Source: Desulfosarcinaceae bacterium
Lineage (GTDB): Bacteria > Desulfobacterota > Desulfobacteria > Desulfobacterales > Desulfosarcinaceae
Length of the DNA: 64,000 nucleotides
Assembly (NCBI GenBank): GCA_030066015.1
Contig: JASJCL010000018.1
Coordinates: 1-64,000, forward strand
Direction of reading: 5' to 3'
A program made the position numbers and the translations under genes. A model generated the notes under the pieces. That model had not been told where the DNA came from. It did not search any database and worked only from the letters and a program-made list of their open reading frames with translations. Of the stretch, positions 24,420 through 27,187 are shown piece after piece (the stretch's first letter is position 1; each line of letters starts with the position of its first letter).

Positions 24420-25100
24420 ATGCGCATCGACGAGCTGGGACTGAACCGCTTTTGCGAGGCCCTCATGGCGGGCCAGCGGGGGCGCTGCGCCGCCATGCTG
24501 GACCATTACATCAGTCGGCGGACGCCCGTCCTCGATCTTTACGAGCAGCTCTTCCAGCCGGCCCTCTACCGGATCGGCGAACTCTGGGAGACCAATCAGA
24601 TCTCGGTGGCCACCGAGCATATGGCCACGGCCATCGTAGAGGGTCTGATGAACGAGCTCTATCCCCGCCTGCTGCCCAGGCAGCGGCGCGCTCTGCGGGC
24701 GGTGATCGCCTCCGTGGAGGGCGAACTGCACCAGGTGGGGGCCAAAATGGTGGCCGATATATTCGAGATGAACGGCTGGGATGCCCACTACCTGGGCGCC
24801 AACATGCCATTGAGCGAACTGCTGCGCATGATCCAGCAGGTTCAGCCGCATGTGGTGGGCTTGTCGCTGAGCGTCTACTTTCACATGAATCTGCTGGTAA
24901 AGGCCCTGGATGTGCTCCACAGCCGTTTCCCCAAGCTGATCCTGCTGGTGGGCGGTCAGGGCTTTTCGCGGGGGGGCGCAGCCATCATTGACAAGTTTCC
25001 CAACGCCCGCCTCATCGACTCCCTCCACCAGTTGAACGAATTCGCAGCGCAATACACGCCGGAGGACCTGGAGAGCGCAGATACGAAAGGAGCATCATGA
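24420..25100 (+). CDS. CarH-like adenosylcobalamin-binding (B12) sensor protein without DNA-binding domain
   Basis: A 226-residue cytoplasmic protein with a helical B12-binding cap (residues 1-88) and a Rossmann-type cobalamin domain (90-205). The cap has W56, nine residues, then E66-H67: the Wx9EH signature of CarH/LitR adenosylcobalamin photoreceptors, where the Trp covers the adenosyl group. The cobalamin domain has E102-x-H104-x2-G107 (lower axial His), 41 residues, SLS (149-151), 26 residues and GG (178-179), matching the CarH spacing. The MerR DNA-binding domain of CarH is missing. The residue after W56 is Glu, not the His that ligates cobalt after light in Thermus CarH. The stop overlaps the next gene (ATGA), and a PAS kinase follows. 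Ligand sensing without light is an alternative. Confidence 0.8.
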   Translation: MRIDELGLNRFCEALMAGQRGRCAAMLDHYISRRTPVLDLYEQLFQPALYRIGELWETNQISVATEHMATAIVEGLMNELYPRLLPRQRRALRAVIASVEGELHQVGAKMVADIFEMNGWDAHYLGANMPLSELLRMIQQVQPHVVGLSLSVYFHMNLLVKALDVLHSRFPKLILLVGGQGFSRGGAAIIDKFPNARLIDSLHQLNEFAAQYTPEDLESADTKGAS

Positions 25101-25567
25101 AGGTAGCCGATTTGGTGGCGTCCGCGACAGCGTTTCAGTCGATCCCCTCCGAGGCGTTGGCAGAGTTCGACGCCAAGCGGGAGATCCTGGTGGCCCGCAT
25201 CAATGAGCGCATGCTGCAGCGACCCGACCTCGATGCCCTGGTGGGCGCGGGCAATCAGCAAATGATGAAGGACAATCATGCCAACCACGCCCTGTTCATG
25301 TCCGCCGTGCTGGGCAACTACCACGCGCAGGTATTGGTGGACACCATCCTTTGGGTATTCCGGGCGTATCGATCACGGGCGTTTCACCCGAACTACTGGG
25401 CGGCCCAGCTCAACGCATGGGTGGACATTCTCAAACAGGAGCTCTCGCCGGAAAGCGCGGGCGCCATCCTGCCGCTCTATCACTGGATGATCGTCCATAT
25501 CCCCCAGTTCAGCCAGCTCACCGACGGTGCCGCGGGCGGCGCGATCACCCAGAAGGCCGCCCAATGA
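25097..25567 (+). CDS. Unknown helical protein of the B12-sensor operon
   Basis: A 156-residue protein of no family I recognise. It is predicted all-helical, without signal peptide or membrane segment, and is rich in His, Trp and Tyr in the middle (residues about 70-130, including HPNYWAAQ and LYHWMIVHIP). It overlaps the cobalamin-binding gene by four bases (ATGA), so the two are translationally coupled and probably interact. The histidine kinase gene follows 58 bases later. It may be a partner that relays the state of the B12 protein to the kinase; a globin-like or RsbR-N-like fold is conceivable but unsupported. Confidence 0.7.
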   Translation: MKVADLVASATAFQSIPSEALAEFDAKREILVARINERMLQRPDLDALVGAGNQQMMKDNHANHALFMSAVLGNYHAQVLVDTILWVFRAYRSRAFHPNYWAAQLNAWVDILKQELSPESAGAILPLYHWMIVHIPQFSQLTDGAAGGAITQKAAQ

Positions 25568-25624
25568 CGCCGGAAGAATAGCGGGCCGCCTCACCATTCA
25601 GCGAATCGACAACGGAGCTCCACC

Positions 25625-27187
25625 ATGCCCGACACACCATGGAAACCCGATTGGCAATCCGAATTGGATGCCGCGGTCCAAACCGCCACCGCCCTGCCTG
25701 CCGGCATCTTCACCCTGGATGGCGAGATCATCTGGCTCAATCAGGGGATGCGCTTGCTCCTGGGAATGGACCAGGAGAATACGGACCCCCTGGCGTGGTT
25801 GATCAATCCAAGCTTCGAACAGCTCCGCGAACTCGCGACCAATGAGGGACTTGCCTTTGACGGCCTGCTGACCGCCGGCGATGGCCAACTGCTCAGCCGC
25901 AGTGTGCGTGCCAGCGTGTATCGCAAAAGGGATCGTCTGCTGGTCGTCTCGGAGTTCGAGGCCCTCCAGCTCGATCACCTCAATCGCCAGATGTCCCAGC
26001 TCAATCAAGAGATCTCCAATTTGCAGCGGGAGCTGCTAAAGGAGCGCAACTCCCTCCAGGAAACCCTCAAGGAGCTGAGCGTCAGCGAGGCCAAATATCG
26101 GCGCTTGTTCGAGGGAGCCGTCCTGGGAATCTTCCAAAGCAGCGAAGACGGCCGGCTCCTCAAAGCCAACCCGGCCTTCGCGGAGACCTTCGGCTACGCG
26201 TCACCGGATGAGCTGATGCAGTCTGTCTCCAACCTGGCCCAGGATCTCTATGACGATCCTGACCGCTTTGCCTCAAGCGCCCGCCAGGCCATCGATGAGG
26301 ACCGCGCCGTGCGGGTCGAGGAGCGCTTCCGCCGCCGGGACGGCAGCAGCTTTCTCGCCAATCTGCGCAAATGGGCTGTTCGCGGCGACGACCAACTCCC
26401 CGTTTACCTGGAAGGCTTCGTGGAAGATATCGAGGAGCAGAAGCGCTCCGAAGCCGCCTTGGTGCAAGCCCGCAAGATGGAGTCGGTGGCCGTGCTGGCC
26501 GGTGGCATCGCCCATGAATTCAACAACGCCCTGGCCAGTCTCGTGGGCTACATCGATCTGCTCCAGCTCTCCTTCCCCAATGAGACCACAGCGGCGGGCT
26601 ATTGCAACTCCATGCACACCTGTTCCCAGCGCATGGTGGATCTCGCGCGCCGCTTGCTGGCCTATGCCAAAGGCGGCAAATATCAGCCCCGGCTGCAATC
26701 CATGTCGAAACTGGTGGAAGATACGCTGGCGGAGACGCGTACCACGGCATCCGCCGGCATCGGCTGGGATACCAGAATCGCGCCCCGGACACGGCCGGTG
26801 ATGGCGGACGCGACCCAGCTAAAAATGGTGATCAGCATCCTGTTGGAAAACGCCATAGAAGCCCTGGAACCGATGGACAAAACAGGCCGCGTAGCGGTGA
26901 CGCTCGCCGAGACCCACCTGGACGCCGAAGCACTGCCGCACGCCAGTATGCGACCGGGCGACTATATCAGGTTGCGCGTGGCGGACGACGGCGTCGGCAT
27001 GCCGTCCGATGTGCGCGAACGCATCTTCGAGCCGTTCTACACCACCAAATTCCAGGGCCGGGGCATGGGGATGGCGGCCGCATACGGGATCGTCAAGAAC
27101 CACGATGGGTGGATTTTCGTGGACTCCACGCCGGACGAGGGGACCCAGGTCCAGATCCTGATGCCCGTGGCCAGCGAATCGGTTTAG
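25625..27187 (+). CDS. PAS-domain sensor histidine kinase
   Basis: A 520-residue soluble kinase. It has an N-terminal degenerate PAS domain (about 15-112), a coiled coil (115-152), a second PAS domain (153-275), then HisKA with phospho-acceptor H297 in GGIAHEFNN. The HATPase domain has the N box LLENAIEAL, G1 DDGVGM, F box and G2 GRGMGMAAAYG. No membrane segment is seen, so it senses a cytoplasmic signal. No response regulator is encoded alongside. Given the two upstream genes it probably receives the cobalamin-protein signal. The start has a weak GGAG-type site. Confidence 0.88.
   Translation: MPDTPWKPDWQSELDAAVQTATALPAGIFTLDGEIIWLNQGMRLLLGMDQENTDPLAWLINPSFEQLRELATNEGLAFDGLLTAGDGQLLSRSVRASVYRKRDRLLVVSEFEALQLDHLNRQMSQLNQEISNLQRELLKERNSLQETLKELSVSEAKYRRLFEGAVLGIFQSSEDGRLLKANPAFAETFGYASPDELMQSVSNLAQDLYDDPDRFASSARQAIDEDRAVRVEERFRRRDGSSFLANLRKWAVRGDDQLPVYLEGFVEDIEEQKRSEAALVQARKMESVAVLAGGIAHEFNNALASLVGYIDLLQLSFPNETTAAGYCNSMHTCSQRMVDLARRLLAYAKGGKYQPRLQSMSKLVEDTLAETRTTASAGIGWDTRIAPRTRPVMADATQLKMVISILLENAIEALEPMDKTGRVAVTLAETHLDAEALPHASMRPGDYIRLRVADDGVGMPSDVRERIFEPFYTTKFQGRGMGMAAAYGIVKNHDGWIFVDSTPDEGTQVQILMPVASESV

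Follow-up and report, generated by a model that had tools for sequence, protein, structure and literature searches.

The three genes at positions 24420 to 27187 of the window, by which is meant the whole stretch of 64,000 nucleotides analysed here from a Desulfosarcinaceae bacterium (contig JASJCL010000018.1), probably, though by no means certainly, encode a photocobilin-like sensor hub that is split over two genes and accompanied by a dedicated output kinase. Open reading frame (ORF) 1 (24420–25100, plus strand) encodes a stand-alone cobalamin-binding domain of 226 residues, consisting of a helical cap and a Rossmann part; ORF2 (25097–25567, plus strand) encodes a protein of 156 residues with a globin fold and invariant Asn60 and Trp86; and ORF3 (25625–27187, plus strand) encodes a soluble histidine kinase of 520 residues. 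A preliminary description made from the DNA letters had connected a CarH-like sensor with a kinase. All three genes stand together at 75 of 80 related loci, and the view that a CarH-type sensor lacking a DNA-binding domain belongs with a kinase is supported by these comparisons, but the nearest characterised system is the photocobilin, not CarH. Like the trio, the photocobilins SasPcob and AbDPcob combine a CarH-type B12 domain with a five-helix globin, carry the W-x9-EH and E-x-H motifs and have no bis-His residue (PMC10979010).

ORF1 contains the cap and cobalamin motifs that the preliminary description had listed, all at the expected spacing: W56; E66-H67; E102-x-H104-x2-G107; exactly 41 further residues; SLS at 149–151; 26 residues; and GG at 178–179. 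Its Pfam domains are B12-binding_2 (residues 9–80) and B12-binding (93–183), and no other Pfam domain, the MerR helix-turn-helix included, was found up to E 1, in agreement with the earlier statement that a MerR DNA-binding domain is missing. It has been reported that light-responsive cobalamin domains share the signature GxxW / EH / GxxH / GxxxP, derived by SignatureFinder against decoy cobalamin domains (PMC11796333). ORF1 carries this signature in full, as G53-W56, E66-H67, G101-H104 and G126-P130. Among 90 B12 proteins of relatives, W-x9-EH is present in 88, [ED]-x-H-x2-G in 87 and GxxxP in 85, these counts having been remade without the Gly of GxxH, since a pattern that requires it fails in 81 of the 90; this Gly is not general among relatives (15/89), and H104, W56, E66 and H67 are each conserved in 88 of 89. 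The top four PDB matches of ORF1 are B12 photoreceptors, namely CtMerR (8jbs, E 2e-17), SasPcob (8j2x and 8j2w, E 2e-15) and AbPcob (8j2y, E 2e-14), and CarH ranks lower (E 2e-10), beneath several methionine synthases. ORF1 is also weakly similar to the NCBIfam models of MtbC, MtaC and MetH, which would agree with a corrinoid methyltransferase subunit whose neighbours are coincidental; this explanation is highly improbable, as all the scores lie far under the cut-offs, the Trp and Glu-His motifs are present, the trio is conserved together with signalling genes, and the immediate neighbours in the window are not methyltransferases according to a Pfam scan of these neighbours.

The residue after the cap Trp of ORF1 is Glu57, which occupies the position of the bis-His residue His132 of Thermus CarH, and among the 88 relatives whose motif can be read, 87 have Glu after this Trp. 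Because the Glu is found family-wide, a CarH-type bis-His light state of ORF1 appears unlikely, as had been suspected from the window's own Glu. The His is likewise missing in SasPcob, AbDPcob and CtMerR, where Gln, Tyr and Arg, respectively, stand in its place (PMC11796333).

ORF2, which had been described as a partner of unknown kind, is a globin by its predicted structure. Its family has no Pfam or NCBIfam match, the Pfam globin models match none of 13 members, and a PDB profile search with the family found no relative (best E 0.13). The AlphaFold model built from 55 sequences has a predicted local distance difference test score (pLDDT) of 92.8 and a predicted template modelling score of 0.86. 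When this model was compared by VIA, globin-fold proteins dominated the 50 matches listed: smURFP (Z 13.8; root-mean-square deviation (rmsd) 2.5, 128 residues aligned), the DosC globin (Z 13.8; 2.5, 133 aligned), many allophycocyanins (Z about 12–13) and the globin half of SasPcob (8j2w, 227–345; Z 11.5, rmsd 2.8, 117 aligned), with the caution that Z below about 13 may be generic for helical bundles. A poorer model from the single sequence (pLDDT 60.9) also puts globins first. For comparison by sequence, five plasmid globins served as the photocobilin-type set: L120, which matches SasPcob at E 5e-81, L121, L125, L122 and L124. The alignments by hhalign and hmmsearch give the same register, which fits the start offset in VIA (17 to 227) and lays Asn60 of ORF2 on Asp270 and Trp86 on Trp296 of SasPcob, the underlying sequence match itself being non-significant; Asp270 and Trp296 were placed on the printed SasPcob sequence by their spacing of 26 residues. 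Both ORF2 residues are invariant in 94 of 94 globins, the window's included (L036, L038 and L039, whose globin match is broken or cut, are left out). In SasPcob, Asp270 holds biliverdin and Trp296 is hydrogen-bonded to the corrin ring; AbDPcob has His at the Asp270 position and is still classed as a photocobilin (PMC10979010).

The association of the three genes was examined in other genomes. A contig search with the single globin of the window found nothing, and a profile of 13 relatives succeeded, yielding 150 relatives of which the best 80 were kept; the pattern used required a WV[YF][RK][AST]Y[RH] core, so that the counts describe close relatives. The order B12 gene–globin–third gene occurs at 56 of these 80 loci, B12–third–globin at 13 and globin–B12–third at 4, and 7 are incomplete; the complete ones lie on one strand within 3 kb. 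Two loci at which the contig ends within the third gene (L062 and L077) are counted as complete, which brings the loci with all three genes to 75, and two others (L073 and L116) begin at or in the module, and their B12 gene could lie off the contig. The preliminary description had called for such a survey and held that homologues which are never neighbours would speak against the association; they were found to adjoin. The carriers are labelled as Bacteroidota (59), Thermodesulfobacteriota (11), Pseudomonadota (2), Planctomycetota (2), Spirochaetota (1) and Elusimicrobiota (1), together with four unranked labels (delta-proteobacterium, Riflebacteria, SAR324 and Aminicenantes), and Lutibacter and other Flavobacteriaceae are among those that carry the trio. 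In the host's phylum, the globin was found in 15 of 395 genomes at E ≤ 0.01, one of them at 0.008; L037 (globin E 0.008, none on re-search) was dropped, leaving 96 loci. Here the close globin relatives are separate proteins; in the distant ones, at 9 loci, the globin forms the N-terminal part of a fusion with the B12 domain, and 7 of these loci continue with a third gene. Over 85 sets, the pairwise distances within each of the three protein families follow those within the other two (r 0.766, 0.717 and 0.766; maximum of 500 shuffles 0.197), a correlation to which shared ancestry of the hosts contributes.

ORF3 was confirmed as the soluble PAS histidine kinase that had been proposed: Pfam recognises PAS (residues 156–270; 26090–26434, plus strand) as well as HisKA, with the H-box HEFNN at residue 297, and HATPase_c (together 26498–27169, plus strand), and no strongly hydrophobic stretch of 19 residues was found (maximum Kyte-Doolittle mean 1.09). 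Ahead of the PAS domain lies a divergent PAS-like and coiled-coil region with the motif LN.E..NLQR.L.KE (25643–26092, plus strand), for which Pfam gives no match at E 0.001; with the limit relaxed to E 1, ORF3 also shows a further, weak PAS_8/PAS_9 stretch, listed without its place. A model of this N-terminal region, built from 27 relatives with the window left out, was run against the 5.7-Mb assembly and scored the window's kinase at 161 bits (E 4.8e-47) and the next place at 14.7 bits (E 0.059). Since nothing else in the assembly exceeds 14.7 bits, the region is specific to the module. Among 88 third genes, the window's included (L029, where the ORF was called too long, and L119, a repeat of L024, are omitted), 76 have HisKA, 74 HATPase_c, 9 GGDEF and 3 a receiver domain; the input region is thus common and the output exchangeable. 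The gap between ORF2 and ORF3 is 57 bases and not 58 as first counted. The ATGA overlap that had been noted between ORF1 and the 156-residue protein is present at 25097–25100 (plus strand) and likely brings about translational coupling of the two.

In the mechanism proposed here, ORF1 would bind adenosylcobalamin (AdoCbl) with His104 as the lower ligand, the adenosyl group against Trp56 and Glu66-His67 at the dimer interface, and the ORF2 globin would dock on ORF1 so that Trp86 covers the corrin edge. Breakage of the cobalt-carbon bond by light, or loss of AdoCbl, would then move the Glu66-His67 helix and change the oligomeric state, and the globin/B12 complex would relay the signal to the PAS-like coiled-coil region at the N-terminus of ORF3, raising or lowering its kinase activity. 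Such a course has precedents in the photocobilins. In SasPcob, the globin lies against the two parts of the B12 domain and protects the edge of the corrin; in light, the adenosyl group is released, the Glu-His helix shifts and the dimer breaks (PMC10979010). In addition, photocobilin domains act in trans on a diguanylate cyclase that is a distinct protein, changing its activity (PMC10979010). The window's genome holds adenosyltransferase families of the CobA and PduO types, and since two families are present, AdoCbl can be made there.

Several results weigh against the reading of the trio as a split photocobilin-like hub with its own kinase. Foldseek found no match below E 0.001 for the ORF2 model, and VIA was applied afterwards as a second look. 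The ORF2 family is not significantly similar to the photocobilin-type globins either by hhalign (E 0.066, probability 0.8%) or by hmmsearch (E 0.24–0.89 for four proteins); because of this, the kinship rests on the fold and on the same kind of B12 partner. There are true exceptions to the trio, as L096 has the globin alone, L089 lacks a B12 gene, and L088 lacks a third gene and has a B12 gene that is divergent. In the host's family, the globin was found in 1 of 30 genomes, the window's own, and the other 29 are without it, which suggests acquisition or repeated loss; the tree is not strong enough to position the window's copy of the globin. Many carriers are in lineages known for anaerobes, such as Thermodesulfobacteriota and Marinilabiliales, and some carrier record names (nzgw, HGW) presumably denote groundwater samples, both of which fit poorly with light. 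Finally, ORF2 has Asn at the position aligned with the bilin-anchoring Asp and haem oxygenase is nearly absent in the carriers, so that the likeness to photocobilins probably does not extend to the bilin.

Because so many carriers belong to lineages of anaerobes, B12 status or oxygen is a real alternative to light as the stimulus. The same three-protein complex would then respond to the availability or oxidation of AdoCbl, with ORF1 in its apo form or with damaged cofactor switching the kinase; we judge this possible, at well below even chance. Other signs of light sensing are scarce, phytochrome PHY domains having been found in 1 of 49 carriers searched, and it has been reported that binding of AdoCbl in the dark lowers the output of AbDPcob relative to the apo protein (PMC10979010). 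However, the B12 domain retains every element of a light-responsive signature that was set against decoys (PMC11796333). Because this signature is complete in ORF1, light is favoured and is, on the sequence, the most likely stimulus of the trio.

A full photocobilin function, in which the globin binds a bilin, taken up from outside or formed by a pathway that escaped recognition, and broadens the response into the red, is unlikely. The fold of ORF2 is near those of smURFP, the allophycocyanins and SasPcob, and it has been reported that BBAG-2 globins, encoded separately beside B12 genes, bind biliverdin (PMC10151467), but the residue aligned with Asp270 of SasPcob is an invariant Asn (94/94), Cys is found at globin position 97 in 0 of 94, and no column has Cys in more than 15 of 94. 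At the position of the BBAG-2 RGMC motif, the window's ORF2 reads R94-A95-F96-H97, without the motif, the placement at 94–97 following from the hhalign register. A search for haem oxygenase in the window's genome gave no match. The enzyme was found in 2 of 48 genomes of named carriers (L094 and L043), for which completeness is not stated and an absent gene may be an assembly gap; 49 of the 80 named loci had been taken for this search and the genome of L045 was left out. In carriers from the phylum sample, the 15 globin positives minus G401, it was found in 0 of 14, the window's genome included, and one Desulfatibacillum genome is probably in both sets. The single PHY domain belongs to the genome of L043, where on contig C90 (G427) the haem oxygenase lies about 1 kb from it; owing to this proximity, the bilin of L043 probably serves its phytochrome. 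A role of ORF2 as a biliverdin antenna, optically coupled to B12 as in photocobilins, was therefore rejected on this indirect evidence, Asn being aligned with Asp270 and haem oxygenase nearly absent, and ORF2 is probably a lid or transmitter.

A globin that serves as a haem or oxygen sensor partner was also considered, since the fold also matches globin-coupled sensors such as DosC. This is very unlikely: none of the 94 globins' columns is an invariant His, positions 61 and 64 being His in 85 and Asn and Phe in the other 9, and position 94 being His in 54, and the absence of Pfam globin matches in the 13 members mentioned above also speaks against it. Haem ligation by ORF2 thus appears unlikely, and the haem-sensor reading was rejected for want of an invariant His.

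Globins paired with B12 sensors are already on record, as fused photocobilins (PMC10979010) and as separate BBAG-2 globins (PMC10151467). In the register described above, whose sequence match is not significant, Trp296 of SasPcob is kept as Trp86 in ORF2, and photocobilin output by protein contact is documented in trans. They differ in that B12 domain and globin form one polypeptide in photocobilins but two separate proteins in the window, fused in distant relatives, and in having Asn aligned with Asp270, no haem oxygenase found, an output kinase that is a distinct protein with an input region of its own, and globin sequences without significant similarity. BBAG-2 is similar in that globin and B12-binding protein come from separate neighbouring genes, but it has the RGMC Cys motif, binds biliverdin and is partnered by haem oxygenase and a pre-2 bilin reductase (PMC10151467); the window's family has no such Cys, nearly no haem oxygenase and a kinase instead, the two families being set apart here by description. 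The CarH/LitR regulators of the MerR type share the cobalamin domain and the signature, whereas ORF1 lacks the MerR DNA-binding domain, has Glu for His132 and is partnered by a globin and a kinase. The photoglobin of Schneider and colleagues (2022) is reportedly a globin associated with a B12-binding light-sensor domain and signalling domains; that survey may hold members of the ORF2 globin family, which limits the claim to novelty. No description of the trio with its kinase was recognised in the literature searched, which comprised titles and the starts of abstracts, with subscription journals outside it. Relative to this literature, three features are new: a dedicated kinase that has an input region of its own, the range over which the trio occurs, and a globin family with neither the bilin Asp nor the BBAG-2 Cys, in genomes where haem oxygenase was mostly not found.

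More broadly, the trio may be a widespread tripartite sensor in anaerobic lineages, in which a stand-alone B12 photosensor passes its signal to a globin without ligand. This globin, descended from or otherwise akin to the phycobiliprotein-type globins but lacking haem and bilin, would act purely as a protein-to-protein transmitter, and the signal would reach interchangeable outputs (histidine kinase, diguanylate cyclase or zinc-ribbon-like protein) through the common PAS-like coiled-coil region; we offer this whole picture tentatively, as an idea with a little less in its favour than against it. The trio would use distinct proteins to link B12 photoreception with two-component signalling, and to our knowledge there is little work on light sensing in the carrier lineages. 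It also provides a natural experiment on why a globin adjoins a B12 photosensor where no bilin-making enzyme was found. Should the globin prove to be ligand-free, the photocobilin globin may have started out, or finished, as a transmitter and not as an antenna. The three proteins, being small and soluble, could, moreover, serve as a convenient green-light kinase switch.

Several related loci extend the picture of outputs and fusions. A four-Cys zinc-ribbon-like segment stands at the end of certain third-gene products and of a receiver-domain protein encoded next to one trio; it has the form PIC..C.KIRD...W..........HGICPEC-like and is common to L024:7238-7843, whose protein has no Pfam match, L025:7487-8089, L029:4394-6337 (minus strand) and L023:5621-6223 (minus strand). 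It is possibly an uncharacterised signalling output. At L055:7597-8331, the trio is followed on its own strand by the gene of a receiver-domain protein, and 15 such ORFs were found in a cluster of 16 loci; this protein is a candidate cognate regulator, and no response regulator was found among the four immediate neighbours of the window's trio, to which the Pfam scan was confined. On a plasmid of Ilyobacter polytropus (L123:3027-5070), a fused globin-B12 protein of the ORF2 family (E 1.7e-28) is followed by a GGDEF protein whose N-terminus gives modest scores of 21 and 45 bits with third-gene models. Similarly, a plasmid of Azospirillum brasilense Sp7 (L122:3039-5408) encodes a fused globin-like-B12 protein and then a histidine kinase with a similar LNNELANAQRAL coiled coil; this kinase scores 18.6 and 19.7 bits with two third-gene models and was left out of the counts. 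In Desulfatibacillum alkenivorans (L024:8849-9489, the same as L119:6877-7517), the intact trio is accompanied by another B12 gene, whose frame is broken, and by a further copy of the third gene.

The flanks of the window's trio are ordinary metabolism: its minus-strand neighbours encode a urocanase and an amidohydrolase, and downstream follow a flavoprotein of the succinate dehydrogenase/fumarate reductase type and then an iron-sulphur protein, all according to Pfam. In the same genome, an ordinary CarH/LitR-type regulator with MerR and cobalamin domains (L002:1078-2055, at G000:C31, about 60 kb; Pfam MerR_1 and B12-binding_2) is probably a second B12 sensor.

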